This document shows positions 3,517-59,640 of a stretch of DNA of 64,000 bases, piece by piece (the first letter of the stretch is position 1; each line of letters starts with the position of its first letter). The DNA is from Spinellus fusiger. Its lineage: Eukaryota; Mucoromycota; Mucoromycetes; Mucorales; Phycomycetaceae. Both the position numbers and the translations under genes were made by a program. Below the pieces are notes generated by a model, which worked only from the letters and a program-made list of their open reading frames with translations, was not told where the DNA came from and did no database searches. The stretch spans positions 496,001 through 560,000 of the forward strand of contig JALLLS010000003.1 in assembly GCA_025094145.1 (NCBI GenBank), given 5' to 3'.

Positions 3517-4231
3517 AACAGAGTGAAGAGTGAGATGGAAGGGGATCTTTTTTTTTTCTTTTTTTTTGTGATTGAGATGTTGATACTTTATTAGAAAGAA
3601 CTATGATTGGCATGGTAGTTAAATAAATGCTTTCTTTTTCTTTTTAACTTATTCCTTCACAAGATGGCTCTAGCACACTTCGCACAGAACCCATTGCCAG
3701 GAAATGGGTATAGTAAGAGTATAAGAAATGAATACTATATTATATTATATTAATAACATAGTCTGAGAATTAAGGCAAAAAGAAAGAAGGAATAAGGAAT
3801 AAATAGGATAAACAGGATAAATATAAGAGAATGGCGTGTAAAGAAAAAGAAAAAGAAACAGGGCGTATAGTTCAGCCCCTGTTTTTGTACTGCTGCTGGT
3901 GGTGGTTAGTGGTCTTTTTCGAATAAGAGAGAGCATAAAGCAAAGGAAAGACTGTAAGGTTAAATATGAGTGGTGTCTCTCTACATCTATTATTACTTAC
4001 AGGTGCTTGTCGGTGAGTCTGTCTTGAATATCAGTCAAAAGAAGAGGTATGAAAGGAGAGGTGAATGAGGAGTGGCTAAAGAAGAGACCAGGTAAAAGAA
4101 AGAGAGAGATGAGGACTAAGTAAGGATGTATAGGTGTATAGGTATATAAGTATATAGGTGTATAAGTATATAAGTGTATAGGTATATAAGGTGTATAAGG
4201 TGTATAAGCAAAGACTGCACAGACTTCTTCT

Positions 4232-5005
4232 TCACAATACAAGACATTTGAGCTTCTTCTTGTTCTTGTCCTTGGGTGGCATTTGTCGATTAATCTGTCG
4301 AACAAGGTCATAGAATACTTCATCCACATTGATCTTGTACCGTGCAGATGTCTCATAGAAGGGTTTTCCACCCCATTGCTGTGACAAACGCATGCCTTGT
4401 TCTCTGGACACCATTCTATCTTCTTCAAGATCACACTTATTTCCTACCAATACCATTGGAACCTATATATGTGTTCCCAATACAATTAGATAAGAAACAG
4501 AAACTACATCCACTCTCTTCACTGCCTACATTGTCTGTGTTCTTGACTCTCTGAATCTGTACCCTCAGCTCCTGCAGCTCTGTCAGGGTAATCATACTTG
4601 CAATGGAAAACACAAGAAGAAATCCCTGACCATTCTTCATGTATAAATCTCGCATGGCGGTAAACTGCTCCGTACCAGCTGTATCGAGAATCTCAAGCAT
4701 GCATTGTTGTCCATCCACCTCCACTTGTTTGCGGTAAGAATCTTCAATCGTAGGATCGTACTTTTCCACAAAGATTGACTGTACGAATTGAACTGTCTAT
4801 CATACAAAATATCAGTGGAAGTGTTTGATGGAGATGTAGAGAGAAAGAGGTCTCTTGTGCTATGGAATCGTCCTAGGCCTAGTGTAGTCCATAGAGAGAA
4901 GAAGACTATGGCAAAAAAAAATACAAACCAACAAGAACAATAACGTACCAAGGCTGATTTTCCAACACCACCCGATCCTAGTACCACTAGTTTGTATTCT
5001 CTCAT
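4232..5005 (-). CDS. Rap1/Rsr1(Bud1)-like Ras-family GTPase
   Basis: Three exons read leftward: 5005-4949, 4796-4530 and 4462-4232, giving 184 aa, the usual Rap1 length. It shows the P-loop GSGGVGKS (residues 10-17), switch [12 protein letters not shown], switch [22 protein letters not shown] and ETSA. It ends in the CAAX box CLVL, predicting geranylgeranylation because the last residue is Leu. A lysine-rich stretch precedes the box. The effector loop matches Rap1 and fungal Rsr1/Bud1 rather than Ras2. In yeasts this GTPase acts at the plasma membrane to choose growth or bud sites through Cdc24/Cdc42; in a filamentous fungus a role in hyphal polarity is likely but inferred. All introns are GT-AG and in phase. 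Confidence 0.93.
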
Positions 5006-6987
5006 CGTCTGTATAGGGACACTCTTTTGATTCTCTCTTATAGATATATGTATATCTGTTAGGTTAGATAAGAGTGGGTTCTCTTTATGAAGGTGTAGTT
5101 TGTAAGAAGAAAAGGCCAAGCTCAAGGAGACAAAGTAGAAGAGAGGATCTTTTATAAGTAGAGATATAAGTAAGGCGCGCTTCATATAAGGAAAAGAGTT
5201 AAAAAAAAAGCACCATCTTTCTTTCTTCTTTATCACAATGGAGACTATAGAAACCACAGCTGCCCATAGTATTATCGCTACTACTACTGCTACTACTACT
5301 ACTGCTGCTGCTGCTGCTACTACTACTACTATTTGTGTCTCTAGGGTTGAGTCAACTACCTTTTTAATAGCTCAGGTTGTGTTTGTACAGGGAAACAAGA
5401 CAGAAATAGCAATAATGGCAGAGAGGTGAGGAAAAGAAGGAAGAAGTGATCACGAAGATATTAGAGTAACAAACACGTTGTAGACCAACAGAAAAAATTA
5501 GGGGGCGCTTCATTTGCACTGGGGAGCAGGAAATAAATGTGTGTGTGTGTGTGAGAGAGAGAGACACACATTTCTTAGTGAGGATGACAAGTGAAGAATG
5601 ATAACTATTCTGTACCTATACTCACAACAGTGCTTGATGATCAACTTTGATGAACAAGAAGGAATCTCAATTGAACAGAAGAATAAACAGTCAATGTGTA
5701 TGCCATAAGACGATACACAGTGAGGTCTATTAGCAAGGGAAATGGATTCGTAAGAAATGAGATGTATATTTTTTTTATATATAAATATAAAGGACAGGTT
5801 CATTGGACTTTTATGGTACTTTCATGGTGTAGTAAGCCATATTTGGTGCTGTACTTTGTGCGAAGAATATCTAATAAATGAAAATAATATGAGTGGAGGA
5901 ATACCGTTTTATAGTACAAACTAGCTTATTAATGAAGGATTGACCTGTGGATTTGCGATAACATGCCACCGTCCTTCTAGTGACAGATATGCCTATGCTT
6001 GGAATGATAGGCTGCATGCACAAGTCCACACTAGTGTATATCAACCAACAGATCCATTATACAACAGTCACAAACACACGAGAGATGTCTTGGTGATAGG
6101 ATCATACGTTAAGGAATGAAAAGAAAAAGAGAACACGATCTGGTGAGAATGGATCTGAGCTAAAGACAGCCGTGTGGTGTGTCTGTAATTATACATATGA
6201 CACATCTGTCTTTGTGAATACAGTTCAGAGTCCAAGGTGTGTTTTTATTCCTCCCATGACCTCCATGGCCCTGATACTGTACTGTAGACTACACTTCTTT
6301 TTCTTCTTCTATTAGGACACTTGGCCATTGCTACTGTAGGAATCCATAGGTTGTTTTCTACTCACAAAGACCATGGCAACTGTGTACCCATCTCATGTTG
6401 CACACAGCATCGTGCTCATGGCAACTCATATATTATTAGACTGAAACTGACTCACCCACAGTATCTGTTTGTCCATAACAGGATAGTAACGGTGTGTCAC
6501 AAAGGATACATCCCTTTGATTTGCACACATTTGAGGTTGAAATACTTGCCCTTTCTTTTTCATGTGTGGATTTGTGTGTAAGTGGGAGTGGAGACGGCGG
6601 GTCGTTCCTTGGCTTGAAAGAATTCAATGCCACCGAGCGGATGATGTGTGACATCATATTTGTTACTAGAAATAGAAATAGAAATCCTTTGACTATCACT
6701 TTCACAGGCAAAGGCTGGTCTTATTTTACGCTTTTCTGCCTGCTTAACCTATTTTACACTTGTCTCTCCTTTCTTTCTTACACTTAACAATCCCCTTCTT
6801 TTTGCCTGTTCTCTCTTCCTAAGCCTGTAATTTAGTGTAGAGAAGCACAGTGGAACAGAAAAGGAAAAGACATACCCACTCTACTCATATAGAAGAAAGA
6901 AAGAAGAGAAACAAACAAACAAACAAACAAACAAACAAACGCCTACTAGTGTGTCTATCCATTTTTCTACTTTTATAGTCTACGAGT
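5006..6987. other. Spacer between Rap1-like gene and SLA1, with simple repeats
   Basis: This probably holds the promoter and 5' UTR of both flanking genes. Simple repeats are a (TAC)/(TGC) trinucleotide tract at 5278-5331, a GT run joined to a GA run at about 5537-5569, and an (AAAC)n run at about 6911-6940. Short open frames at 6321-6581 and 6494-6787 have no recognisable domain and no consistent splice structure, so I do not call a gene. Confidence 0.5.
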
Positions 6988-14868: not shown

Positions 14869-17813
14869 TTGCTAATAAACTAGTTCCTTTTATAACTTGA
14901 ATTGCTATCTTGCTTTATATACCGCAGTCAGTTTAATTAATTAAGTGAACCAAGTTCTATGGAGTATTCAAAAAGATCAAATACACTGCACTCTGTATCA
15001 AATCCAGTAGGGTGAGCCAATGAAAGACATACCTGGTGGTTTGTTTTTATATACATTGAATCAAGTAAGGATAAGAAATAGAATTAAAGCATGTCCTTAT
15101 GCCTTTAAGAATAATAATTAGTTCGTAGGTTGCTCATAGAGTGCCTTATTCTGTGCTGTATCCATAATAATTTTAGGATAGCTTGAAACTTTGGAGGGAG
15201 CTGCTCTGCAAGTCATTTCAACGGTAAGCTGCCCCGATGTGGGCGTGGTGTAATTGGAGCTGATTTAGATTTGTTTGTTGTGAACTTTTTTGATTTTATT
15301 TCAAGTGTTGATAGAAAAACAAAAAAGGGGGGCGGGGAAACAGAATAGTGAGGCTAGCCTCATGTATTATGTGAAGGTTGCATCTTTGCAAATATAGCAT
15401 GGTATAGGCTGATTATACCATTTCTTTTTTGCTGTTGTGTTGGTTTGGATGCTCTTTATCAAAAAAATAAAAATAAAAACAAATAAACATACTAGATATT
15501 TATGGGATTTTATATCTATTGATAAATCATCTATCTAAATGTGTATTGAAGCATGTATAGTATAAAAGAGAATTTATAGAGCTCATATTCTATTCTACTG
15601 CATATTATCTTATCTCTACTTTTATAGCTCAATGTGTACACAAAAATAAAGATGGAGTTGATCATTGATCCTATACACTATGTAGGCTGAATCTTCTTTA
15701 TTAAAATACTAACTCATGAGTGCTCTTTTATTCAGCATTATTACACATTGAGAGTGAGGCCTATCTGTTACAAGTAATAGATAAGAACTTAATCTTTATT
15801 TAAATTTAAATTGAATACATTCCATTTTTACTTGAAGAAATCATTTGAATAATGTATATTGGCCTTTTCCTTGTATCAAAAAGATATTCTAAAGGAAATA
15901 GTGGAAGATGACAAGAAGTTAAAATATAATAGCATGGTCTTGTACTATTCCGTGATTAATTGTGATGGTTCAACTAAAAAAACGATTTGTTTTATGTTTT
16001 AAAACTTGTACAACTGGTAGACTTGTAATAAAAACATGAGAAGCCATTGTTCCTTGATCATGTTATTCATATTGAGGCGTGATCATTTCTTTTAGACGTG
16101 ACAAAATGACTGCATAAACTGTCTAACATCATGAAACTTAGCTCTCATCAACGCATTGAGCTCAGTCAGTCTAATATAAAACAGTGTTTCTACATAATTA
16201 ACGCAATAGTTGTTAGTACTATGCTATGTATCAGCACATTCATAAGAAGGATAAGAAAGAAATAGATAAATATTGCCTCTTTGGAGTAAAGAGTGTATGT
16301 AGACCTCATTCTAGAAATGGAACACAGTGGGCCAATTGAGAGGGTCTTGAGTCCCCTTTATTTTCTTCATAGAAACACAGCCGTATAAAAGAAGCTTCGT
16401 CATAGATGTGTTGATCAAAGGATAAAATGTGCCATTTAAAAGGATAAAATCCAATACGCCGAGTAGAAATCATATACTTTTCCGGACTTTTCCTATGACG
16501 CGAAATTTATAGAGTAACCCACATGAAAAACGCATTCTCATATTCTTTTTTTTTCTTTTTAATAAAAGTAGAATGACTAATTCTTCACTACCATGCCCTG
16601 TCTAAACACGCGATCAATGTATTGCAAATAAAATGCAATGCCGAAGGTGTATACTGTTTTTTTTATTGGTCTGATGAATGAATGATGATCAACTGTTATC
16701 AAATGAAGATAGTACTATAGAATATAAACTAATGCAATAACAGAAATATCTAATGTTAAGTATTAAATGAAGGAGATTTGAAAAGGTACACTCTAACTAA
16801 TCATAAAAATGAAAGTATTTTGAATGACTCTAATGATTATGCAGCAATATCCCTTACTGGTTCCCACTGTTGAACTATAGTATAGGCCCATATTGCTCTA
16901 TTTTGTCTATTCTTTACACTAAGAATAAGCCCTTTTCTTTTATGTATCCATTGAACTACACTTAGTCATTCTATATAGTATCTTCACATGAATACCCCAG
17001 AAGTTAATGCCATGTTTAATGTACATGCCATGTTTAATATTTTATTCTACCTTATCACAGTATTCCCTATTCTACTCAATTAAATTCTGTCTATTAATAA
17101 CTCTATAGATTACACTGAGCCATTATAGGCAAATAGTGAGGGATAAAGAAATTGAAAGGGGGGAAGGTTACCCATCTTTATTCCAAAAATGGACATAGGC
17201 ATAATGATTACAAGACAAAGTGAATTCAATCATTACCTATTGCCATTGCCCAATAGAATGGCACTCAACCCAAGATTCTTTTGTTTGCATTGATACTAAT
17301 GAGTCTTTTTCTTCTAATATTTATATTTATATCTATATTTATATTTATATATATATACATTTGTATTTATATCTATATCTATATCTATATCTATATCTAT
17401 ATCTATATCTATATCTATATCTATATCTATATCTATATCTATATCTATATCTATATCTATATCTATATCTATATCTATATCTATATCTATATCTATATCT
17501 ATATCTATATCTATATCTATATCTATATCTATATCTATATCTATACATGTATAGATGTAGATATAAATACAAATGTATATATATATATTTAATAACAACA
17601 TATCTGGTTACAGGATACTCTGTTGAATGACCACACTCTTGTTGCTGTTGCTGTTGCTGTTGCTGTTGGATTTATTCCCTAACATTATAGGATAGAGTGC
17701 ATTAAGTAAAGCCTTGGGATATGTGCAAAACGAACATTAGAACATCAAGCAACTTTGATATGTACAAAAATAATATTTATTGATACGAGAAGAAAATCAA
17801 AACTTAAACCTCT
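14869..17813. other. AT-rich gene-free spacer
   Basis: No supported gene on either strand over nearly 3 kb. It includes a relatively GC-rich patch at about 15180-15270 with no recognisable identity. A large hexanucleotide array and a (TTGCTG)n tract at 17640-17669 lie near the right end. Confidence 0.5.
17364..17546. repeat. (ATATCT)n hexanucleotide array
   Basis: About 30 near-perfect copies of a TATATC unit, flanked by less regular TATATT and ATGTAG variants. Since a 6-bp unit is a multiple of three, no frame is interrupted, and spurious Tyr/Leu, Ile/Tyr and Asp/Ile open frames appear on both strands. These are not genes. Confidence 0.95.
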
Positions 17814-29274: not shown

Positions 29275-30663
29275 GTGTCATAAAGTACACTGTGTGTTTA
29301 TATACATACTTTTATCTATTTATATATACATATCTCTTATTCTTCCCGAAAGTGTTTCTAGGTCTATCTGTGTGTGAAGCCACTGCAGTTGTAAAGCATA
29401 AGCAGCAGAGACTGTAGAATAGTATATTATAGTATAGCATAGTATATTATAGTATAGTATATTATAGTATATTATAGCATATTATAGTATAGTATATTAT
29501 AGTATATTATAGCATATTATAGTATATTATAGTATATTATAGTATATTATAGCATATTATAGCATGGCATAGCATAGCATAGCATATTATATAATAGTAT
29601 ATTCTGTTGAATGTGGCTGTATTCACACTTTCTTGAACAAGTATGTTTATCCTAATTATATACCCAATAACCACTTGAGTGAACCATCTTCAAGATAGAA
29701 ATACACACTGTTGTGGGTATGGTCATTTACACAAAAGTCATTGCAGATGTTCAGATAATGATAGAAACTAAAAAGAAAGCAGAGACATTGTGATATGACC
29801 AAAAAAATGGCAGCTTACTGTAAATAATGAGTGAGATACATGCTCAGTCAATGACCAAAATATCATGATAAGCACACTAAAATACTACTGCTTCAGATTG
29901 ATGTACAGAAAACTAAATCACCTGCATTTATTTGGAAAGCCCTTTCATTAGTATAGAATATATACTAACATTGAACAAGGTCGCTTGGATTTTATATAGC
30001 ATAACAAAGACACACTGAGAAGAGATATACTAAGCAGTATACATGATAATGTTACCTTAGTTCTTATATACTAAAAACGGGAAACTAACAGTTAGCAAAT
30101 TAAAGAAAAAATAGTATTGAATAAAGCATCTATGATAAGTCGTAGTGTATTTGAATGCAGTGAATAGATCTTTTAGAGGTAGTATAAGAGTACAATAGTC
30201 TGCATTAGTATGTGTGCCTTTTGGTGGTAAGATCATTCTATTTGTAGTCATCGTTAGATGAGAATAAAATCATAAAAGAATAACATACAAGTTGAATAAA
30301 AAACAACAGAATGAATCATACGTTAACTAAACAGATATCTTTGGACACAAGAAGCCATTGATGACACTATCACATCAATAGAGGATGAATAGTAGCTGAT
30401 ACTATACAATGTTATTAAAGGCTATCCATTCCCTCTTTCTTATTGTATTTCTATCTATTCTTTCTGAACTAAAGATGTTATGTAGCCAACAAGATACGAA
30501 TAAAGTAAATTAAATACAACATGCTTATAGAATCAATCTAAGGTTCTTAGATGTGTTTGATTTTTATAGGAGACTATAGCAAGTTATTCAGGTGCGAATT
30601 CTACCAGAGTAATGACAATAAAGAGAAAAAGCATGCGGAGGATGTTGAATAAAGAAGGATTCA
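29275..30663. other. AT-rich spacer with ATAGTATATT minisatellite
   Basis: No gene. A tandem block at about 29410-29605 is built from TATTATAGTA and TATTATAGCA variants of about 10 bp. The right end is the outer flank of the transposon nest. Confidence 0.6.
29410..29605. repeat. ATAGTATATT/ATAGCATATT minisatellite
   Basis: Roughly 18 imperfect 10-bp copies with interspersed 5-bp ATAGC units. Variant units are interleaved, suggesting expansion by slippage. Confidence 0.85.
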
Positions 30664-30679
30664 AGCTCTATCATACAGT
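30664..30679 (-). repeat. 16-bp flanking repeat X (3' flank of LINE copy 1)
   Basis: Read on the minus strand this is ACTGTATGATAGAGCT, lying immediately after the LINE 3' end (ACTTTGA). The identical 16-mer lies at 37236-37251, at the 5' side of LINE copy 2 and overlapping the right Tc1 end. Confidence 0.85.
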
Positions 30680-31060
30680 TCAAAGTATTTTTTATTTTTG
30701 GGTGTGGTTTGCTATTCGCGCATTGGGCATGTTAGCCACCCTATGAGAACTTTTGAAAAAATAGAATAAACATTAAAACACTTCAAATACGAAAGTGAAA
30801 AAAAGAATGCACATGAATGGGAAACAGAAAGACCGAGAAATACAAAACCTCAGATGAGGGAAAAATGATGAAAAATGAGAAATGATGGTAAAATGAGAAT
30901 TATGAATAGACATCCAAAAGGCCATAAAGTCAGCAAGGAAACCAGGACACCAAAAAGATAACCGTCATCCTGTGGCGATTCGAAATCCAATGAGAGATAC
31001 TTAAAGCAACTCGGACAATCCTAAACATAAATAGAGCAGCTTCTGGCTTTGCTAAATGGG

Positions 31061-34000
31061 TTAAGAATAGGTGGTAGAGGAGAGATCAGGGGAAAAGTGA
31101 GGATACAGCGTCTGTTGCTGCAGGAGTCTTTGCACTCTATGGCGGCGTTGGCGTTCCCGCTCAACACACCCATCAGCAGCCTCAATGAGCAGGCTACCAG
31201 CTGATGGCTCTACCTTAAAGTCTCGAGTAGACGTGGCTCGATCAATGGCTTGCAGCAGTATTAAAAAACTGGGCCAAAGGTCTCGCCATTTAACAAAAGA
31301 CTTAACCGTGCGTGGCAGAAGATTTAGACAATAGTCAATTGGATGAATGTCTTGTGGTGGTGCAGGAACTAGGAAGAACAAGAACGTGGAGCGTTCATGG
31401 TCAACGAATGTGCAAGTGAGAAAGTGGTCCCGATTGGCAGATGGGTGGCCACATTGGCAAGGAGCTGAAGGTGTTGGTGGTAACCAAGCAATCCTCCATT
31501 TTAGTAGACGATGTCTTTCTTTGCGCGTGCACGGTAGTAGAAGAATTGGATCCCAAACAGGTCTACATAGTCCACGGGCTACCGTCACCAGCGGATTCTT
31601 GCCACGTACTAGACTAGTAATTTCACTTTGAAGACGTTCAAGATAAGCTACTTTTAATGGATATTTAGGAGGGTTGTGAGCCCGTCCTATTCTTTGAGCA
31701 TTTTGCCAGAGTACATTGCCACGTAGCTTAATCCATCTGGCTTTACTCTGGGGTGCTTCAAGCTGCGGGACAAGGCACCAGAGGAGGGTGTCTTCAGGAA
31801 GGGTAGCTGCGCGCTCAACAAATTTGGCTTGCAGATAAAGAAAACGAGAGTATATGTTAGGGAGGGCAGCTAATTGGGCAACCTGGATCGTTCCAAACCT
31901 AGCAGTAGCAGATCTAGCAAGACAAAGTCTCAGACAAGCAGACTGACAGATTTGTAGCGGGCGGATGCCTAGTCTATTGACATTACAAATAGCCAACCCA
32001 TACTCAAGGATAGGCCGAACAAAAACAGTATACGCTCTTAGGGCTGCTGTAATCCCAAAGCCATACATGTTTACACCCATTCCTCTCAGCTTTTGCATTA
32101 CTGCAATTGCCTTGACTTGTGAGTGTGAGAAAAGTGCGTCTTGGTTAATACCTTGACGTGAAAAGGGGATACCAAGGTACTTGAAAGTATCACAGGTTGG
32201 AAGCTCGTTGCCATAGAGGTAAAACGGCACATTGGCCGGGGCATTGAGTACTTCACATTTGGAGGGACTCCATTTGTAACCAAGGAGGGTCGAGTGAATT
32301 TCGGCAAGTGCCAGCATTCGATGTATATCTTCTGGGCAGCCCATAAGAGCCACATCATCAGCATACAACAAACAATTCACAGGAGCCCAAGTAACAGTGA
32401 CATGAGACGGACTGTAAGAGGAATCTGACAACTCAGAAGAGTCATCCGAAACTGTAGAAGTAGGAAAAGGATTGTGAAGGGAATTCTGTAACTCGTCAAG
32501 CAATGCGTGAACAGTTGCCTGTGGGGAAGCAAAAGAGAAAGGATTTCGAGCACAGAGATTAATGGACCGTCCCATGGTAGGTGGGTGCATACCAACCAGT
32601 ATTGGGGATACCGAAGCAAACCTCAAGAAACGTGGAAGAGTATCAATGAAAATAGAATAAAGAAATGGAGAAAGAATACTACCCTGTAAGACTCCTCGTT
32701 TAGGTGCAATGTCCCGGGATGCTACATTTTTCAGAATCACATTCACCACAATGTCATCAAACAAATTCTGTAGTAGCAAGAGCAACGGCTGAGACACGAA
32801 GGGCATCAGCGACTCCCATATGACAGAGCGTTCCACACTATCATATGCAGCTTTAATATCTAGGAAGACGACGACTGGAGGTTTTGGATCTTGCTCTCCT
32901 GATCCTTGGGCAGCGTACAACCCCATAAGTTCGTGGAGACAGAGGGCCTGGTCTAGAGTTCCACGACGAGCGCGAAATCCACCTTGAGCCATGTCCAATG
33001 CAGGCATGGTCGAAAGGAGCTCCCCAGCTATACATCTTTCTAAGAGCTTACGAAACACCGATGTCAAGCTAATAGGCCGATAGTTACTAGGGTCATCCTG
33101 CTCTCCTTTGTTTTTGTAAATAGGTACCACCTGTGCTGTTCTCCAGGCCACAGGCGTCCACGACCATCTCCAACACAATGTGAAGATCTGATGTAACAGA
33201 GGCACTAGCACTCGAACTAGGGGTTTGAGCATTTCTGCTCTAATATGATCAATGCCTGGTGCTTTTCGATTTGGCATCTTTCGAATAGCAGAGTGAATAA
33301 AGTCTACGTCCCATGGGACTGGATTGTCTTGGAGAGTAAACTCCTGACGCTCCTGTCTTTCCGTAGATCCGCCAAACACTCTCTCTAGGTGGTCAATCAT
33401 GCGATTGGCAGCATGCCGAGGGCCCTCTGGAGATGACAGGGAAATTGGCGAACGTCTCCGCAGCCTCATTCCTTTCACAGCACTTGTCATCTCTGTTAAG
33501 CCCTTACGGACTTTATCACAAAATACATGCCAGGTTTGTCGTTGTGCTTGCCTTATAGCCTTTTTCAAAGCTAAACACGCTTCCTCATACAAGCGGTGGG
33601 CTTCAATGCGTTCAATATCATTGCCTACCCGTCGTCTAAAACGATAAAGTTCTTGACGACGGTCAGCTAACTGTTGTAGATCAGCATTCCAGTAGCTTTT
33701 CCAAGCTTTTGGATGGGATTGTGCGCGCCCTACGCTATCATCCAGGGCCTTGTAGATTGACTCATTGAGTCTCTCAGCAAAGTCCTCCATCTTAACAGAG
33801 CACAACGGGGTTTTGTCTTCCAACATTTTTTGGATCTCTCTTTGCAGTTCACCTGTGTTCTCTGCAAAACATCGCTTGTACTGGTCACAGACTGTTTGTT
33901 TGTTTAAACGTTGCAGTCTCCAGAGGCGACGGACAGCTGTTTCTGTCATGAGCGGTGGCATGAGCACCGGCTGAAAGGACAGCTCACACAAGTGGTGGTC

Positions 34001-34654
34001 TGAACCTAACGTCAGATCGTCCCTAATGTGCAAGCACACTTCGGAGAAGTTGTAGCTTCTTGACAGGAACAGGTCAATAATGCTAGCAAACCGACGACCA
34101 TCTGCTAGAATTCGCTCATATGTAGGCAAGCCAAATGCCAACTCTGAGTTCCACAAGGTTAGATCCTGACGGCAGATCCAGTCTTCAAATTCCACATGTC
34201 TGTCGTTTATGCCATGATCTCCAGTCAGGCGGCCTAAACGTGTATTCAGGTCACCAAGGACGAGTGTGAAGTCGTCTATGGGTAGTGAATTCAACCTTTC
34301 CGCAGCCTCACTAGACGACAGCCTCGGAGGTAGGTACAGACCATGGAGTGTATATGGGCCAATCCTACAGGAGACCACAAAAGGATTAGTAATTGGTAAG
34401 GAATGTACATGGTAAGGAAAGTCAGGACGAATAAAGAACGAAACTCCATCAAAACCTCGTCCAGCATCACCATGGGCTGTAGCATAGTTGTGTATTTGTA
34501 TCCAGGGGCACCTCAACATTTGCATGTCTTTGGTCAGGAAAGTCTCTGTCACTAAAAGTATATCAATATCATTCTGCACACACACATTCAGAACGTTCAC
34601 CAGTTTGGGCCTGATTCCACAAGCATTCAATAGACCAATCTTCAGTCTATTCAT
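31061..34654 (-). CDS. LINE ORF2: endonuclease and reverse transcriptase
   Basis: An uninterrupted 1197-aa frame. The N-terminal apurinic-type endonuclease (about 1-230) starts KIGLLNACGIRPKL and carries ETFLT, GDLNTR and GSDHHL. The reverse transcriptase (about 440-860) has RKAPGIDHI, NYRPISLTS, GFRARRGTLDQAL, FLDIKAAYDSV, GVLQGSILSP and the catalytic YADD at about 763. Near 1065 a C-terminal zinc knuckle reads CQCGHPSANRDHFLTC. It would nick the target and prime cDNA synthesis there. Its ATG overlaps the ORF1 stop as ATGA, which suggests translation by termination-reinitiation. No frame defects are visible, so activity is plausible but unproven. Confidence 0.95.
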   Translation of the reverse strand: MNRLKIGLLNACGIRPKLVNVLNVCVQNDIDILLVTETFLTKDMQMLRCPWIQIHNYATAHGDAGRGFDGVSFFIRPDFPYHVHSLPITNPFVVSCRIGPYTLHGLYLPPRLSSSEAAERLNSLPIDDFTLVLGDLNTRLGRLTGDHGINDRHVEFEDWICRQDLTLWNSELAFGLPTYERILADGRRFASIIDLFLSRSYNFSEVCLHIRDDLTLGSDHHLCELSFQPVLMPPLMTETAVRRLWRLQRLNKQTVCDQYKRCFAENTGELQREIQKMLEDKTPLCSVKMEDFAERLNESIYKALDDSVGRAQSHPKAWKSYWNADLQQLADRRQELYRFRRRVGNDIERIEAHRLYEEACLALKKAIRQAQRQTWHVFCDKVRKGLTEMTSAVKGMRLRRRSPISLSSPEGPRHAANRMIDHLERVFGGSTERQERQEFTLQDNPVPWDVDFIHSAIRKMPNRKAPGIDHIRAEMLKPLVRVLVPLLHQIFTLCWRWSWTPVAWRTAQVVPIYKNKGEQDDPSNYRPISLTSVFRKLLERCIAGELLSTMPALDMAQGGFRARRGTLDQALCLHELMGLYAAQGSGEQDPKPPVVVFLDIKAAYDSVERSVIWESLMPFVSQPLLLLLQNLFDDIVVNVILKNVASRDIAPKRGVLQGSILSPFLYSIFIDTLPRFLRFASVSPILVGMHPPTMGRSINLCARNPFSFASPQATVHALLDELQNSLHNPFPTSTVSDDSSELSDSSYSPSHVTVTWAPVNCLLYADDVALMGCPEDIHRMLALAEIHSTLLGYKWSPSKCEVLNAPANVPFYLYGNELPTCDTFKYLGIPFSRQGINQDALFSHSQVKAIAVMQKLRGMGVNMYGFGITAALRAYTVFVRPILEYGLAICNVNRLGIRPLQICQSACLRLCLARSATARFGTIQVAQLAALPNIYSRFLYLQAKFVERAATLPEDTLLWCLVPQLEAPQSKARWIKLRGNVLWQNAQRIGRAHNPPKYPLKVAYLERLQSEITSLVRGKNPLVTVARGLCRPVWDPILLLPCTRKERHRLLKWRIAWLPPTPSAPCQCGHPSANRDHFLTCTFVDHERSTFLFFLVPAPPQDIHPIDYCLNLLPRTVKSFVKWRDLWPSFLILLQAIDRATSTRDFKVEPSAGSLLIEAADGCVERERQRRHRVQRLLQQQTLYPHFSPDLSSTTYS

Positions 34655-35595
34655 AATTCTTCTCGGTGGATGTTTTGGGCGTCTCCCTCATCTTCTTCCA
34701 TAGCTGAGCCTGATCCAAATGCCTGGATGGCCTCTTCTTCAAGGGTGGCGGGGCGGCTGGCAACTGGGGTCTTGGCCTTGAGATCCGCCAAGAGCTTCTC
34801 AAAGGCAGTGGCAGAGAGGCGGGGAGTGGCATTACCAGAGCCAAAGTGGCGAGCAATGCTGTACCCTAAGTGGGTGGGGGAACGAAGACAGGTGTTTGAC
34901 ACTCTCTGGTCAAAGAGTTCCTGGGCCTTTGCAGCCTTGGTACTGTTGGTTTCCCCTTGGAGCTTTGGGTCTGCAATGACTGCAGCGGACACAGGGTTGA
35001 AGTCCTTCACTGGACTGATCTTAAGCTTCTCGAGGTGCTCCTCGAGTTCCTTCTTGTAGCTGCTGTGGACCAGCAGCGCAACTGTTCCCCTTGCCGGGAA
35101 GTGGATGTCAATGATCCGTGACTGTTGGATCTTCAACGATCCCAACATCTTGCGGACCTGGCCGTACTTAAGGTATCGGCGGCAAGGGACGTATACGAAT
35201 TCGTACACTGAGGGTCCAGTGGGCTCCTGCAAGGCACGTACTGCTTGTGCCTTAAGCACTGCTTTGGCCTTTGTAGGCTTCTTGGCCTGGAGGTTCTTCT
35301 TTGCCATGCTGGCGTAGGTGGTGGGTGTGGGTGTGGGTGTGGAGGTTGGGGCATGCTTTGAAGCAGCAGTCGAGTTGTCCTGCTTGGCAGGGGTGGCAGG
35401 GGTGGCAGTGGTGGTGGTGTTGGTGGTGCTGGTAGTGGCCTGAGCCTGGAGGGATGCAATCATTGCATCCTTGGCCTTCAATTGGGCCTCCAATTCCTGG
35501 ATACGGAGTCCAAAGATCTCCATCTGTTTTTGGATTGCCGCCATCATCTGCAGCATTTGTTGGGCGTGGGTGTCGGCCTTTTCCACCTCGGACAT
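34651..35595 (-). CDS. LINE ORF1 (RNA-binding, gag-like)
   Basis: A 314-aa open frame directly upstream of ORF2. Residues 1-50 look like a coiled coil (QKQMEIFGLRIQELEAQLKA). A Thr/Pro/Ala-rich linker follows, then a folded region (GPSVYEFVYVPCRRYLKYGQ through HFPARGTVALLVHSSYKKE) that could be RRM-like. It has no CCHC knuckles. ORF1 proteins of LINEs coat the RNA and act as chaperones in the RNP; that role is inferred from position. The stop TGA overlaps the ORF2 start. A related version is preserved in the derivative at 38.3-39.4 kb, with strong conservation of the folded region. Confidence 0.88.
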   Translation of the reverse strand: MSEVEKADTHAQQMLQMMAAIQKQMEIFGLRIQELEAQLKAKDAMIASLQAQATTSTTNTTTTATPATPAKQDNSTAASKHAPTSTPTPTPTTYASMAKKNLQAKKPTKAKAVLKAQAVRALQEPTGPSVYEFVYVPCRRYLKYGQVRKMLGSLKIQQSRIIDIHFPARGTVALLVHSSYKKELEEHLEKLKISPVKDFNPVSAAVIADPKLQGETNSTKAAKAQELFDQRVSNTCLRSPTHLGYSIARHFGSGNATPRLSATAFEKLLADLKAKTPVASRPATLEEEAIQAFGSGSAMEEDEGDAQNIHREEL

Positions 35596-35858
35596 TTTGT
35601 TCTCCTCGTTGGTTCTTGCTCGGGTGCGTTTGGCAAGCAGTTTTTCTTTTCTGCTTTTAGGGACGTCGTAGGTGGTGGGGACGTCGGTAAGGCCAAACTC
35701 GAAGGGTTTGGCGGGTGGTGCTGAGGTGGGGTCCGTGGTTAATGGATCCAGTGTGATATAGGTGGCGGGGGGTGTTGGTGTTGACGGATGGGTGATTGTA
35801 ATGTTTGCTGTAGATTTTATTATAACTCTTTGGGGTAATATTTATTACGCGAAAGAGC

Positions 35859-35874
35859 GAATTCATTATACAGT
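35859..35874 (-). repeat. 16-bp flanking repeat Y (5' flank of LINE copy 1, overlapping left Tc1 end)
   Basis: Read on the minus strand this is ACTGTATAATGAATTC. The first four bases are the last four of the left Tc1 inverted repeat and the next two are the Tc1 TA target duplication. The identical 16-mer occurs at 38276-38291 and 39401-39416. Confidence 0.88.
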
Positions 35875-35901
35875 GTCACGACAAAAATCTAAAATATTTT
35901 T
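35871..35901 (+). repeat. Left terminal inverted repeat of the Tc1 element
   Basis: A 31-bp match to the reverse complement of 37209-37239 with no mismatch; similarity stops at base 32 (c against t). Confidence 0.97.
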
Positions 35902-35990
35902 CATTTTCCGACTCTAATTTTGCTAAAAAAAAAAAAAGAAAACTTTTTTTTTACACATTCCTCATTTCTTTTTCCGCTATCATATTTATC

Positions 35991-37062
35991 ATGTCTAACA
36001 CCACCGAACAAACCACCAAGCCTCTTAGAAACAGAAAGAGAAATATCGATGATTTCACTCGCAGACTCATCGTTCACGAGGCCACTGTAAATGGCACCAG
36101 ACAGACAGACAGACATTGTAGCTATGTTTGGCGTCAGTCAGCCCGCTGTCAGCCTCATCATGAAGAAGTACAAGGAAACTGGCTGTTTCAAGGCAGGCAA
36201 GAGCTCTGGACGCAAGCTTGTCTTGAAGGAGAGAGACAAGAGGGAGGTTTCTCTCGAGGTGGCAAGGGACCCTTTCCAGAGCATGAAGGAGCTCCACCAG
36301 GGAATGGCCACCAAAGTGTCCATGAGGACTTTTGAAAGAATGATGAAGAAGATTGGCCTGTCTTCTACAATGTTATTAAGAAACTTTCTCTTAACAATAA
36401 AAACAAGAAGTTGAGGCTTGCTTAGGCTAAGGCCCACTTCCATTAGACTGAGGAAGACTGGAAGGCAGTCATCTGGTCCGATGAGTCCAAGTACCAGCTA
36501 ATGAGCAACAACCACTGCAACAGAGTAGTGCGTAGAAAAAGGAGGGACTGCTCCCAAAGAATGTAAAGCCTATCATGAAGTTTGGTAGTGGTGGGGTGAT
36601 GGTGTGGGGTTCCTTTTCTGGTGAAGGTGTTGGTAGACTTGCTGTGGTGGAGGGGTCTATCAATAGTGCCAAATACACCAGTATTTTAGAAACGGCCTAT
36701 TGCCCCGAGCTGGCTCGTCTTAAGGCATTGGATCCAGTGGTAGGCTATGTTCTTCAAGAGGACAATGCCAGTTGCCATACTAGTAAGGAGACTAGGAAAT
36801 GGAAGGATGAGAGGGCATAGTCACTATGGAGGGGTGGCCTTCTCAAAGCCCTGACCTGAACCCAATTGAGCATCTTTGGGAGGAGCTCGACAGAGCAGTC
36901 AGAAAGAAGATGACCCCAAGGAGCACCCTCCAGGATCTGAAGGCTCTCCTGGTGCAAGAGTGGGAAAAAATACCCAAGACTATCACCAACGCCCTCATCG
37001 ACAGCATGCATCGGAGATGTAGGGCTGTTATTAAGGCCAAGGGTGGAAACACCAAATACTAA
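35991..37062 (+). pseudogene. Tc1-like transposase, frameshifted
   Basis: It starts ATGTCTAACACC and ends KGGNTKY-stop. The reading frame changes near 36097-36112, where an AGAC tetranucleotide repeat has altered in length, and again near 36400 and 36820; several stops lie between 36400 and 36575. Recognisable parts are an N-terminal DNA-binding region (MFGVSQPAVSLIMKKYKETG), WSDESKYQL, GSGGVMVWGSF, EDNASCHTSK and SPDLNPIEHLWEEL, which supply the DDE acids. It cannot make a functional protein as it stands. Confidence 0.93.
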
Positions 37063-37208
37063 GGGTTTCCACCTAATAAATCTGTATATATTATCTTGAT
37101 GACCTTCTTTATACTTTATCCAATTTTCAAGTCTCTACTGTGTGTTTAATGTGTGTTTTTATGACAAAGAATGAGTATTTCCATAAACAAGAATCATATC
37201 GGAATGTA

Positions 37209-37239
37209 AAAAATATTTTAGATTTTTGTCGTGACACTG
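37209..37239 (-). repeat. Right terminal inverted repeat of the Tc1 element
   Basis: Perfect 31-bp reverse complement of the left end; TA follows at 37240-37241. Confidence 0.97.
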
Positions 37240-37251
37240 TATGATAGAGCT
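37236..37251 (+). repeat. 16-bp flanking repeat X (5' flank of LINE copy 2, overlapping right Tc1 end)
   Basis: ACTGTATGATAGAGCT: ACTG is the end of the right Tc1 repeat, TA its target duplication. The same 16-mer is at the 3' end of LINE copy 1 (30664-30679, minus strand), not at the 3' end of copy 2. The final T could instead belong to the LINE. Confidence 0.88.
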
Positions 37252-37951
37252 AGGACGGGCTCACAACCCTCCTAAATATCCATTAAAAGTAGCTTATCTT
37301 GAACGTCTTCAAAGTGAAATTACTAGTCTAGTACGTGGCAAGAATCCGCTGGTGACGGTAGCCCGTGGACTATGTAGACCTGTTTGGGATCCAATTCTTC
37401 TACTACCGTGCACGCGCAAAGAAAGACATCGTCTACTAAAATGGAGGATTGCTTGGTTACCACCAACACCTTCAGCTCCTTGCCAATGTGGCCACCCATC
37501 TGCCAATCGGGACCACTTTCTCACTTGCACATTCGTTGACCATGAACGCTCCACGTTCTTGTTCTTCCTAGTTCCTGCACCACCACAAGACATTCATCCA
37601 ATTGACTATTGTCTAAATCTTCTGCCACGCACGGTTAAGTCTTTTGTTAAATGGCGAGACCTTTGGCCCAGTTTTTTAATACTGCTGCAAGCCATTGATC
37701 GAGCCACGTCTACTCGAGACTTTAAGGTAGAGCCATCAGCTGGTAGCCTGCTCATTGAGGCTGCTGATGGGTGTGTTGAGCGGGAACGCCAACGCCGCCA
37801 TAGAGTGCAAAGACTCCTGCAGCAACAGACGCTGTATCCTCACCTCCTCCGATCTCTCCTCTACCACCCATTCTTAACCCGTTTAGCAAAGCCAGAAGCT
37901 GCTAGTGTAGTTGCTGTATTTGTGTCCTCAGGATTGTCCGAGTTGCTCTAA
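37252..37951 (+). pseudogene. LINE ORF2 C-terminal fragment
   Basis: It corresponds to the last roughly 215 codons of ORF2, including the CQCGHPSANRDHFLTC knuckle, then diverges after QTLYPH and reads into the 3' UTR with a different tail (ending SSGLSELL). No endonuclease or RT remains. Confidence 0.9.
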
Positions 37952-38275
37952 GTATCCCTCGTTGGATTTCGAATCGCCACAGGATGACGGTTATCTTTTT
38001 GGTGTCCTGGTTTCCTTGCTGACTTTATGGCCTTTTGGATGTCTATTCATAATTCTCATTTTACCATCATTTCTCATTTTTCATCATTTTTCCCTCATTG
38101 AGGTTCTATATTCTCTTTTCTCTCTGTTTCCCATTCATTTGCATTCTTTTTTTCACTTTCGTATTTGAAGTGTTTATTTGTTTATTCTTATTTTTTTCCA
38201 AAAGTTCTCATAGGGTGGCTAACATGCCCAATGCGCGAATAGCAATCAACACCCACAAATAAAAAAACACTTTGA
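37252..38275 (+). mobile_element. 5'-truncated LINE, copy 2 (inverted relative to copy 1)
   Basis: It starts abruptly inside the ORF2 C-terminal region at AGGACGGGCTCAC and runs to the same 3' end (ACTTTGA) as copy 1. From the start to about 37842 it appears identical to copy 1, including a 94-codon shadow frame that matches residue for residue. Beyond that point substitutions and a 20-30 bp insertion appear. Together with copy 1 it forms a large inverted repeat around the Tc1 element. Confidence 0.93.
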
Positions 38276-38291
38276 ACTGTATAATGAATTC
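38276..38291 (+). repeat. 16-bp flanking repeat Y between LINE copies 2 and 3
   Basis: ACTGTATAATGAATTC directly after the copy 2 3' end and directly before copy 3. Together with 39401-39416 it forms the perfect target duplication of copy 3. Confidence 0.9.
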
Positions 38292-39400
38292 ACAAAGTCA
38301 AGGTCAAGGATGACCTTATTACATCTCTCCAAGCTCAGATCAATGCCAAGAGTGCAGATAATGCACCCAAATCACCTCCCGCCCCTACTCCCACACCCAT
38401 CCCCACAGTGAAACCCACAGATGCCATAGAAAAGGCTACTGTCACTTATGCCAACATGGCTAAAAAGAACGCCTCCCCACCAAAGAAGACAGCAAAGGCC
38501 AGAGCAGTGCTTAGAGCACAAACAGTTCGGGCCTTACAAGAGCCTACTGGGCCCTCAGTATACGACTTTGTATACTTGCCCTGTCGCCGCTACCTCAAGT
38601 ATGGCCAGATCCGCAAGATGTTGGGATCACTGAAGATCCAACAGTCACGGATCATAGACATCCACTTCCCAGCAAGGGGCACAATTGCACTGCTTGTACA
38701 CGGTAGCTTCAAGCAAGAACTCGAGGAGAAACTCGAGAAATCAAAGATCAAGCCACAGGCAAGCTTTGATCCAGTAGCTGCAACGGTGATTGCAGACCCT
38801 AAGCTCCAGCAGGAGTCAGATAGCACCAAGGCTGTAATGGCCCAAAAACTCTTTGAGCAACGAGTGTCCAACACCTGTCTTCGTGCCCCCATTCATTTAG
38901 GGTACAGCATTGCTCGCCACTTTGGCTCAAGCATTGCCACACCCCGTCTATCCTCCATTGCCTTTGAGAAGCTCTTGGCAGACCTCAAGGCCAAGGCCAC
39001 AGTCACCAGCCCTCCCGCCACCCTTGAAAAAGAAGCCCTCCAGGCATTTGGGTCTGACTCAGCCATGGAAGGAGTCGAGGGAGACAATCAACACACCCAA
39101 CAAGACTTGTAAATAGACCAAAGATTTGTCTATTGAGAGCCTGTGGGATTAGGCTCAAACTAATGTCTATGTCTGCATTGTCATTTTCTCTCATTTCTCA
39201 TATTTCTCTTCATTTTTTCCCTCATTTCGAGGTTTTATATACTCATATCTTCTGTTTCTTTTTTCCTTGCATTTATTCTTTCCACTTTTGTATTTGAAAG
39301 TTTTTATATGTATATCTTAATTGTTCAAAAGTTCTCATAGGGTGGCTAACATGCCCAATGCGCGAATAGCAAACCACACCCAAAAATAAAAATACTTTGA
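38292..39400 (+). mobile_element. Internally deleted LINE derivative, copy 3
   Basis: It begins inside ORF1, runs through the end of ORF1 and about 50 nt of ORF2 start, then jumps to the 3' UTR (near 39172), deleting some 3.5 kb. The 3' end matches the other two copies. It is flanked on both sides by the 16-bp repeat Y, so it is a separate insertion event. It belongs to a diverged subfamily, not a simple copy of copy 1. Confidence 0.9.
38294..39112 (+). pseudogene. LINE ORF1 fragment, frame intact
   Basis: Open from the truncated 5' end to the stop, 272 codons; the first in-frame ATG is at 38455. The folded region (GPSVYDFVYLPCRRYLKYGQ onward) is strongly conserved with copy 1 while the linker has diverged, which suggests selection on protein in the parent lineage. 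The N-terminal coiled coil is mostly missing. The ORF2 start codon that followed has been lost (TAAATAG replaces ATGAATAG). Confidence 0.85.
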
Positions 39401-39416
39401 ACTGTATAATGAATTC
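39401..39416 (+). repeat. 16-bp flanking repeat Y (3' flank of LINE copy 3)
   Basis: ACTGTATAATGAATTC after the copy 3 3' end; the sequence then passes into unique DNA (AAAACATCG). Confidence 0.9.
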
Positions 39417-45734: not shown

Positions 45735-46178
45735 TAGATGATTTTAAACTACCAATTATGAGATATGTAAGCTATTGGATATGATTCTATACAAATAACA
45801 ATTAAAACTTATTACTAGAACAGAGGCAGATTATATTATCATGGAGATCTACATTTACTTTTCATACTTTTCAACCGTCTAAAGATAAAACTTGATATAC
45901 ACACAATAGCTAAAGCTGAGACAGTAAAAAACAAGATAGTATGTTATTACAAAGATACACACTATGAATAATGGAAATACATGCATATTGCCTATAGATG
46001 TTTCTGTTGATAGAAAGGCATTGATTCTTATCATCTCGAAGCTATCATTGGTGCTCATTATTCAAGACGTGGCTGATTTGAAAAGTAAAATTCTATTAAA
46101 ACGCCTATTTTCTGATCATGCCCTCAATTCAAATGACAAGTATCCTTTTCCGTGAGTATATCTTGTCTATACAAAGAC
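45735..46178 (+). repeat. 444-bp dispersed repeat, arm 1
   Basis: Matches 59197-59640 in inverted orientation along its whole length with only a few differences. A 63-codon frame inside (VDRKALILIISKLSLV) differs at one residue between copies. Both arms are 444 bp and similarity ends abruptly at both borders. Nature unknown. Confidence 0.85.
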
Positions 46179-50892: not shown

Positions 50893-51256
50893 ATCTAGAA
50901 TAATAGCTTAAGGAATGAAAAGAAGAAATATCGACCTGCAATGAAGATGTGGCTCTTAAACAGAGCTATCGGAGATCAAGGGGTCCAATCGTTGAGTTCT
51001 AAGTCTCATCATATAAATGAGTTATGAATTCCGTAACTCAGTTGGCCATACAAAAGAAATATGAGTGATAACTAGAGGCAGTTGTTAATTAATCGGACAC
51101 AAAGGCAGTGTATTTAACACGTTGAAAAATTCTCGGCCAAGATCTACTTGCAACACATAACATTAATATAAATAGCAGTAGCAGCAAGTGTATGTGTGCA
51201 TAATTCTATTGATCTATTGGATGACTATCATAATGCATTTGTCATTGTCATTAATA

Positions 51257-51424
51257 GTGTATCTGATAATGTATCTAATAGTGTATCTGATAATGTATCT
51301 AATAGTGTATCTGATAATGTATCTAATAGTGTATCTGATAATGTATCTAATAGTGTATCTGATAATGTATCTAATAGTGTATCTGATAATGTATCTAATA
51401 GTGTATCTGATAGTGTATCTAATA
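51257..51424. repeat. 24-bp minisatellite, 7 copies
   Basis: The unit GTGTATCTGATAATGTATCTAATA is repeated seven times with almost no change. Because 24 is a multiple of three, several frames on both strands stay open and give repetitive Leu/Tyr/Ile or Val/Ser/Asp peptides. These are not supported as genes. Confidence 0.95.
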
Positions 51425-51719
51425 ATATATTTGTCATTGACATTAATAGAAGGATTATTATCCACCAAGAGTGAAAAGGCATTTATCCCACACTTCTAGA
51501 AGCCTCAATTAAAATGATATTAACACTGTACTACGAAAAAATCAACAAGGAAACAATCGATGTATATTCACGTGCATAAAAAAACAAAAACAGAGTAAAA
51601 ACAAAAGAGTAAAATAAGAACAAAAACAAAAGTGTACATGCATTAGAAAGGATATTAAAAAAAAGGAAGGCTTACTAAATAGAAGAATAAAACAAGCAGA
51701 AAGATACAAAGAGATAATA

Positions 51720-59196: not shown

Positions 59197-59640
59197 GTCT
59201 TTGTATAGACAAGATGTACTCACGGAAAAGGATACTTGTCATTTGAATTGAGGGCATGATCAGAAAATAGGCGTTTTAATAGAATTTTACTTTTCAAATC
59301 AGCCACGTCTTGAATAATGAACACCAATGATAGCTTCGAGATGATAAGAATCAATGCCTTTCTATCAACAGAAACATCTATAGGCAATATGCATGTATTT
59401 CCATTATTCATAGTGTGTATCTTTGTAATAACACACTATCTTGTTTTTTACTGTCTCAGCTTTAGCTATTGTGTGTATATCAAGTTTTATCTTTAGACGG
59501 TTGAAAAGTATGAAAAGTAAATGTAGATCTCCATGATAATATAATCTGCCTCTGTTCTAGTAATAAGTTTTAATTGTTATTTGTATAGAATCATATCCAA
59601 TAGCTTACATATCTCATAATTGGTAGTTTAAAATCATCTA
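59197..59640 (-). repeat. 444-bp dispersed repeat, arm 2 (inverted)
   Basis: Inverted copy of 45735-46178; see that entry. Borders are equally sharp here. Confidence 0.85.

Follow-up and report, generated by a model that had tools for sequence, protein, structure and literature searches.

A target-selective LINE that very probably prefers the outer ends of Tc1/mariner transposons

We describe a LINE retrotransposon in Spinellus fusiger that is very probably target-selective, its preferred target being the outer end of Tc1/mariner transposons. As far as the genome sequence tells, most of the 5'-complete copies found lie flush against the outside of a transposon end and are oriented outward, many Tc1 families have been hit, and the duplicated target begins inside the terminal CACTG, passes the TA and enters the host flank. 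The locus described here lies in a 64,000-nucleotide stretch of contig JALLLS010000003.1, hereafter the window, and the genome-wide counts refer to the genome from which the window comes (38.1 Mb in 197 contigs).

An earlier note on the window, made from its letters alone, had placed a LINE 5' boundary directly outside each end of a Tc1 element. We found exactly this arrangement (Table 1), with a full-length LINE (LINE-A) running leftwards from 35858 and a 5'-truncated one (LINE-B) running rightwards from 37252. The 16-mers that it had reported at the outer Tc1 ends, ACTGTATAATGAATTC on the left and ACTGTATGATAGAGCT on the right, are exact, each starting with four bases of the Tc1 end followed by the TA, and they recur at LINE 3' ends as claimed: ACTGTATAATGAATTC at LINE-B and at a third LINE (LINE-C), ACTGTATGATAGAGCT at LINE-A. 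In the whole genome ACTGTATAATGAATTC occurs three times, all within the window at the places given in Table 1. LINE-C, which lies in tandem to LINE-B and has the left 16-mer in common with it, was absent from the earlier account.

Table 1. Features of the LINE–Tc1 locus, in window positions
Feature	Position	Strand	Remark
3' target duplication ACTGTATGATAGAGCT of LINE-A (left LINE)	30664-30679	-	exact match; same as right Tc1 flank
LINE-A, full length, 5179 bp	30680-35858	-	5' end flush with left Tc1 flank; one of the 94 5'-motif matches
LINE-A ORF2, 1197 aa, apurinic-type endonuclease and reverse transcriptase	31061-34654	-	Pfam RVT_1, Exo_endo_phos
LINE-A ORF1, 314 aa	34651-35595	-	4-nt overlap with ORF2 start
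5' target duplication ACTGTATAATGAATTC of LINE-A; first four bases are the Tc1 end	35859-35874	-	exact match
Tc1 element, broken transposase frames	35871-37239	+	inverted partner ends; TA at 35869-35870 and 37240-37241
5' target duplication ACTGTATGATAGAGCT of LINE-B; first four bases are the Tc1 end	37236-37251	+	exact match
LINE-B, 5'-truncated (LINE positions about 4170-5179)	37252-38275	+	593 bp identical to inverted LINE-A
Duplication ACTGTATAATGAATTC between LINE-B and LINE-C	38276-38291	+	exact match
LINE-C, 5'-truncated ORF1-only derivative, open ORF1 at 38408-39112	38292-39400	+	in tandem after LINE-B
3' target duplication ACTGTATAATGAATTC of LINE-C	39401-39416	+	exact match

Elsewhere in the window, a 444-nt inverted repeat (45735-46178 and 59197-59640, 99% complementary, 13 kb between the arms) is possibly another mobile element. 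Two long tandem arrays, whose period is mostly 12 bp, lie at 17257-17625, which also self-pairs as an inverted repeat, and at 51197-51473, and an AT-rich array with periods of 10 and 15 bp lies at 29384-29638. Two of six window ORFs scanned had Pfam matches, one to SLA1-type domains and the other to a fungal Zn(2)-Cys(6) domain.

The protein content of LINE-A is that of a non-LTR retrotransposon. Its ORF2 matches the reverse transcriptase family RVT_1 at 1.6e-20 and carries, N-terminal to it, an Exo_endo_phos match (residues 12-220, 2.9e-6, 27.6 bits against a cut-off of 24.5). The Pfam scan of ORF1 gave no match. The best solved relatives of ORF2 are LINE-1 ORF2p (1e-13) and then R2 (3.3e-10); as LINE-1 and R2 are the only LINE types among the solved-structure matches, a clade assignment does not follow, and a search with the endonuclease part alone against solved structures found no relative. 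Target duplications, and 5' truncation combined with a constant 3' end, place the element among the APE-type non-LTR retrotransposons. LINE-C is an ORF1-only derivative of this LINE and by description resembles the HAL1-like half-LINEs; unlike these, it has its target in common with the LINE described here. Compared with ORF1 of LINE-A, its ORF1 shows a dN/dS of 0.21 over 230 codons and looks to have been under constraint. Pairing 5' and 3' motifs by eye, we noted 14 pairs spaced 1400-1464 bp apart that would represent ORF1-only derivatives; the Tc1-end target is common to the full LINE and to the derivative, both in the window copy and at 5' ends with the CAATATTAC variant.

LINE ends were collected across the genome with a 30-base 3' motif allowing up to 3 mismatches, which gave 573 3' ends, and with a 23-base 5' motif allowing up to 1 mismatch, which gave 94 5' ends including the window's own and under-samples old, diverged copies. 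We examined the flank of every one of the 94 5' ends, using loci of at most 3 kb for 30 of them and 141-bp stretches for the other 64. Tc1 ends were scored by comparing the 35 bases before the core, leave-one-out, with a library of 17 Tc1 ends that have their inverted partner upstream. We set the threshold at 28, above the 99th percentiles of both shuffled sequences (27) and random windows (26), so that about 1 in 100 passes by chance; the 99.9th percentiles were 34 for the shuffles and 44 for the random windows, whose source itself contains a Tc1. By this measure, 70 of the 94 5' ends lie directly after a Tc1/mariner-type terminus, 9 lie after the 3' end of another LINE and 15 after neither. 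The LINE is oriented outward from the transposon, and the transposon end is preserved. Counted by distinct duplications (n = 89), the figures are 68 Tc1-type, 7 LINE-tandem and 14 other, and with a score above 34 the Tc1-type class holds 58 of the 94 ends versus 6 of 56 control sites. Insertion in tandem at one site thus occurs, and tandem LINEs repeat the same duplication. With 15 of 94 5' ends outside both classes, the element is not strictly site-specific. Two of these 15 (L093 and L153) are without a clear core, and three others (L116, L125 and L143) look like unlisted Tc1 ends, by judgement and not by count.

One might suppose that a Tc1 and LINE pair was copied as one element, passing on the flush junction. 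Two pairs of sites with identical flanks on separate contigs (L070 and L112; L122 and L145) do point to some whole-locus copying or duplicate assembly, but 89 distinct duplications among 94 sites and the many different Tc1 termini contradict such a composite unit, to which we give practically no weight.

Truncated copies were sampled from their 3' ends. Among 33 3' ends in L004-L033, 15 had an upstream 5' duplication, and these scored as 6 Tc1-type, 2 tandem and 7 other. Five of the 15 are 5'-complete and belong to the 94 counted above (L004, L014, L018, L024 and the tandem L028); two of them (L004 and L024) came out as other solely through truncation of the flank at the locus edge, and are Tc1-type when read as L120 and L126. 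The remaining 10, all truncated, comprise 5 Tc1-type, 1 tandem and 4 other, a lower Tc1 share than in the 5'-complete set, and truncated copies look less selective.

As controls we took the first 56 of 100 listed CACTGTA sites, unselected and all on the plus strand of one contig. Tc1-type ends were found at 8 of them, including one that is itself a LINE-bearing site (L212, the same site as L065) and one (L159) that by eye is followed by LINE sequence. By comparison, LINE targets reading exactly CACTGTA are Tc1-type in 53 of 55 cases (odds ratio 159, Fisher P 2e-20), and all non-tandem targets taken together give 70 Tc1-type to 15 versus 8 to 48 in the controls (odds ratio 28, P 3e-16). The earlier note had proposed a preference for Tc1/mariner termini and had called for LINE copies to be collected and their flanks compared with control sites; in that comparison, 70 of 94 against 8 of 56, the preference is borne out. 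The Tc1 library was built from LINE-bearing elements, and Tc1 families never hit by the LINE could therefore go undetected among the controls. A library-free test, which looks over 1.5 kb for a partner inverted repeat differing at no more than 7 of 27 bases, guards in part against this bias: of 29 non-tandem LINE sites, 18 have such a partner, at 1297-1366 bp upstream, and of the 17 CACTGTA sites in the window only the two ends of the window's own Tc1 have one. We also compared the likeness to Tc1 ends of the 15 non-Tc1 targets and the 48 non-Tc1 controls with a position weight matrix; there was a weak shift (P 0.013), from which we draw no inference because unrecognised Tc1 ends among the 15 could cause it.

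These numbers bear on the idea that the endonuclease reads only CACTGTA and that Tc1 ends are hit because they are common. The motif is indeed frequent, with 9558 sites in the genome against 4888 for the reversed control, but a plain 7-mer preference is disfavoured by the difference between 8 of 56 unselected CACTGTA sites and 53 of 55 LINE targets with the same exact core, and we hold it to be improbable. The motif is thus twice as common as its control, an excess that may stem in part from Tc1-type ends and LINE duplications.

The elements at the targets have the features of the Tc1/mariner superfamily, namely paired inverted repeats, a TA flank and transposase domains. Their termini are diverse: 20 sequences less than 77% identical remain after those sharing at least 17 of 22 bases are removed. 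One frame was submitted to Pfam for each of 16 upstream elements (two frames for one of them), and HTH_Tnp_Tc3_2 or DDE_3 scored above curated cut-offs in 9; of the 7 with no match, 5 had frames of 140 aa or less, so that some transposases may have escaped notice. For the Tc1 of the window there were three weak matches to HTH_Tnp_Tc3_2 or DDE_3, all below curated cut-offs. At about 1.37 kb, with TA flanks, CACTG ends and these two domains, the Tc1/mariner element enters here as the target and not as the agent. The association can also be read from the Tc1 side. We fetched 30 of the 49 ends found for the window's Tc1 subfamily, and 10 of the 30 carry a LINE match that starts at base 3-16 of the outward flank, counted from the TA (8 of 28 without the window's own element). 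All 10 matches point away from the Tc1. In the other 20 no LINE match was found at that place, where very short LINE pieces would escape detection.

We then considered where within the Tc1 end the target is cut, a question on which the earlier note had offered a reading and a caveat: that the LINE cut at the same position in both Tc1 termini, and that ACTG might by chance be the LINE's own 3' terminus. Most LINE 3' ends do read TTTGAACTGTA (ACTTTGAACTGTA has 527 matches versus 7 for the reversed control). The note had counted uniform 3' ends carrying ACTGTAT, combined with unrelated flanks, against its own proposal; the 3' ends largely have this form, but unrelated 5' flanks are not what we see. 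Seven pairs with both ends known are informative because their target departs from A or C at core positions 2-3; in 6 of them (L009, L018, L019, L073, L106 and L142) the LINE 3' end nevertheless reads AAC, and in one (L113) it follows the target. Where position 5 differs, the 3' end follows the target in both available cases (L009 and L146). Genome-wide, 3' ends differing from AACTGTA do so at core positions 2, 3, 4 and 5 in 21, 15, 3 and 43 cases, counts that include the decay of old copies. In a set of 20 stretches the 3' end was present in 9, and the 5' duplication was matched in 8 of these, L133 being the exception. Since the A and the C mostly come from the element and position 5 takes the base of the target, the nick would fall 1-4 nt inside the Tc1 end, the evidence on its exact position being mixed. 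The caveat therefore holds for the A and the C, which are usually element-derived, and fails for the last Tc1 base, which follows the target; likewise, the duplications do include the Tc1 end as the note had it, but start 1-4 nt inside, not certainly at the A. Chance ends of the LINE itself were rejected as an explanation of the Tc1 adjacency. The near-constant AAC(TG) suggests that the tail of the LINE RNA pairs with the target primer. At one 3' end (L028:1501), which reads TTTGAACTGAACTGTA, AACTG is doubled, as if the RNA tail had slipped on the target primer.

The same junctions speak to the possibility that ACTG is the LINE 3' end and that a Tc1 later jumped into the TA starting each duplication. 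The usually element-like A and C before the duplication (AAC in 6 of 7 informative pairs) would fit this reverse order. It is contradicted on three counts: Tc1 elements of many families would need to have picked the first TA in duplications unrelated to one another, some of them beside truncated LINEs; the LINE 3' end takes up the last Tc1 base of its target, with CACTATA becoming AACTATA at L146/L223; and tandem LINEs repeat the same duplication. We consider the reverse order highly improbable.

Several insertions at sites not recognised as Tc1 have duplications at both ends and carry CTGTA- or CTATA-type cores (L113, L147, L009, L010, L017 and L019; the core is AGCTGTA in L113 and CACTGTA in L147), and with such related cores the LINE seems to have a motif preference of its own. 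This matters for a further explanation, in which a Tc1 transposase, either by sitting on the transposon end or by nicking it, brings in the LINE particle or provides the 3' end for priming. Such assistance is attractive in that the preference for Tc1 lies far above the expectation from the 7-mer (the odds ratio of 159 above), and specificity beyond the 7-mer could arise from something other than the endonuclease. In Tc1 biochemistry the 5' cut falls 2 nt inside the transposon, which is within the range of 1-4 nt left open by our data. The non-Tc1 sites just listed stand against it, as does the 3' end of L113, which keeps the target G before CTGTA and misfits a cut at the transposase position. 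Furthermore, the Tc1 termini that were hit have a T-run and a G at -2 in common, and a longer DNA motif could thus explain the excess, which again argues against transposase assistance. We consider this explanation unlikely, and it is a little more doubtful still that the LINE is guided by the Tc1 transposase or primed from its nick in the sense of using the enzyme–DNA complex of another superfamily as a targeting device. That the sequence of the Tc1 end is read by the LINE's own endonuclease is, by our estimate, probable.

The duplications of the window hold a feature that the earlier account lacked: they are crossed. LINE-A has the left 16-mer at its 5' end and the right 16-mer at its 3' end, and LINE-B has the reverse. 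LINE-A and LINE-B have an inverted tract of 593 bp in common at 100% identity, beyond which identity per 100 bp falls to 79-98% further 3'. Together, the crossed 16-mers and the identical inverted tract support an inversion between the two LINEs, and the simplest reading suggests that recombination between the inverted copies flipped the intervening Tc1 segment. Alternatively, the crossed duplications may be an assembly error. An inversion leaves the adjacency unchanged, as each LINE 5' end adjoins one Tc1 end before and after it.

We picture targeting by the LINE's own machinery as follows. The endonuclease would recognise a sequence of the type (C/T)ACTGTA when it stands in the context of a Tc1 end, and would nick the 5'-TACAGTG-3' strand at a point 1-4 nt within the transposon. 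The 3' end released in this way would pair with the ...AACUG(UA) tail of the LINE RNA and prime reverse transcription, and at the window locus a second cut about 12 nt past the Tc1 end would yield the 16-bp duplication. Each Tc1 transposition would in this way create two new landing sites, usable without breaking a gene or the transposon. In the window, two LINEs would have landed on both ends of one Tc1, and later recombination between the inverted LINEs would have crossed their duplications.

The LINE bears comparison with known target-selective elements. Tx1L of Xenopus laevis is a LINE found within the DNA transposon Tx1D, at one internal site of one transposon family. Our LINE resembles it, and the Tx1 clade, in having a DNA transposon as target (70 of 94 5' ends), but its target is the outer edge of transposons from many Tc1/mariner families, and the transposon end is preserved. 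The site-specific APE-type LINEs R1 and TRAS/SART target rDNA or telomere repeats. Like these, the LINE described here would combine an endonuclease of its own with sequence preference, a fixed 3' junction and a target duplication; its target differs in being mobile and dispersed, and its preference is strong but not absolute. PMC8869645 names "other TEs" among LINE targets, citing its references 18-24 for the whole list, of which reference 24 is the Tx1L endonuclease paper. The kind of target therefore has a precedent there, which qualifies the earlier note's statement that the LINE is unlike known site-specific LINEs; the part that stands is the particular target, since our search of open-licence papers found no report of a LINE targeting Tc1/mariner ends, nor do the excerpts of PMC8869645 and PMC6895275 contain one.

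The conserved outer end of a whole DNA transposon superfamily would constitute a new class of LINE target. Such a target moves and multiplies, and a LINE can settle there while sparing the transposon end and, often, any gene. The LINE offers a candidate endonuclease with a preference for Tc1-type ends, and it makes testable whether the excess over the 7-mer is read from the DNA or lent by the transposase. More broadly, it provides a model, open to test, of how one mobile element can live off the transposition of another.
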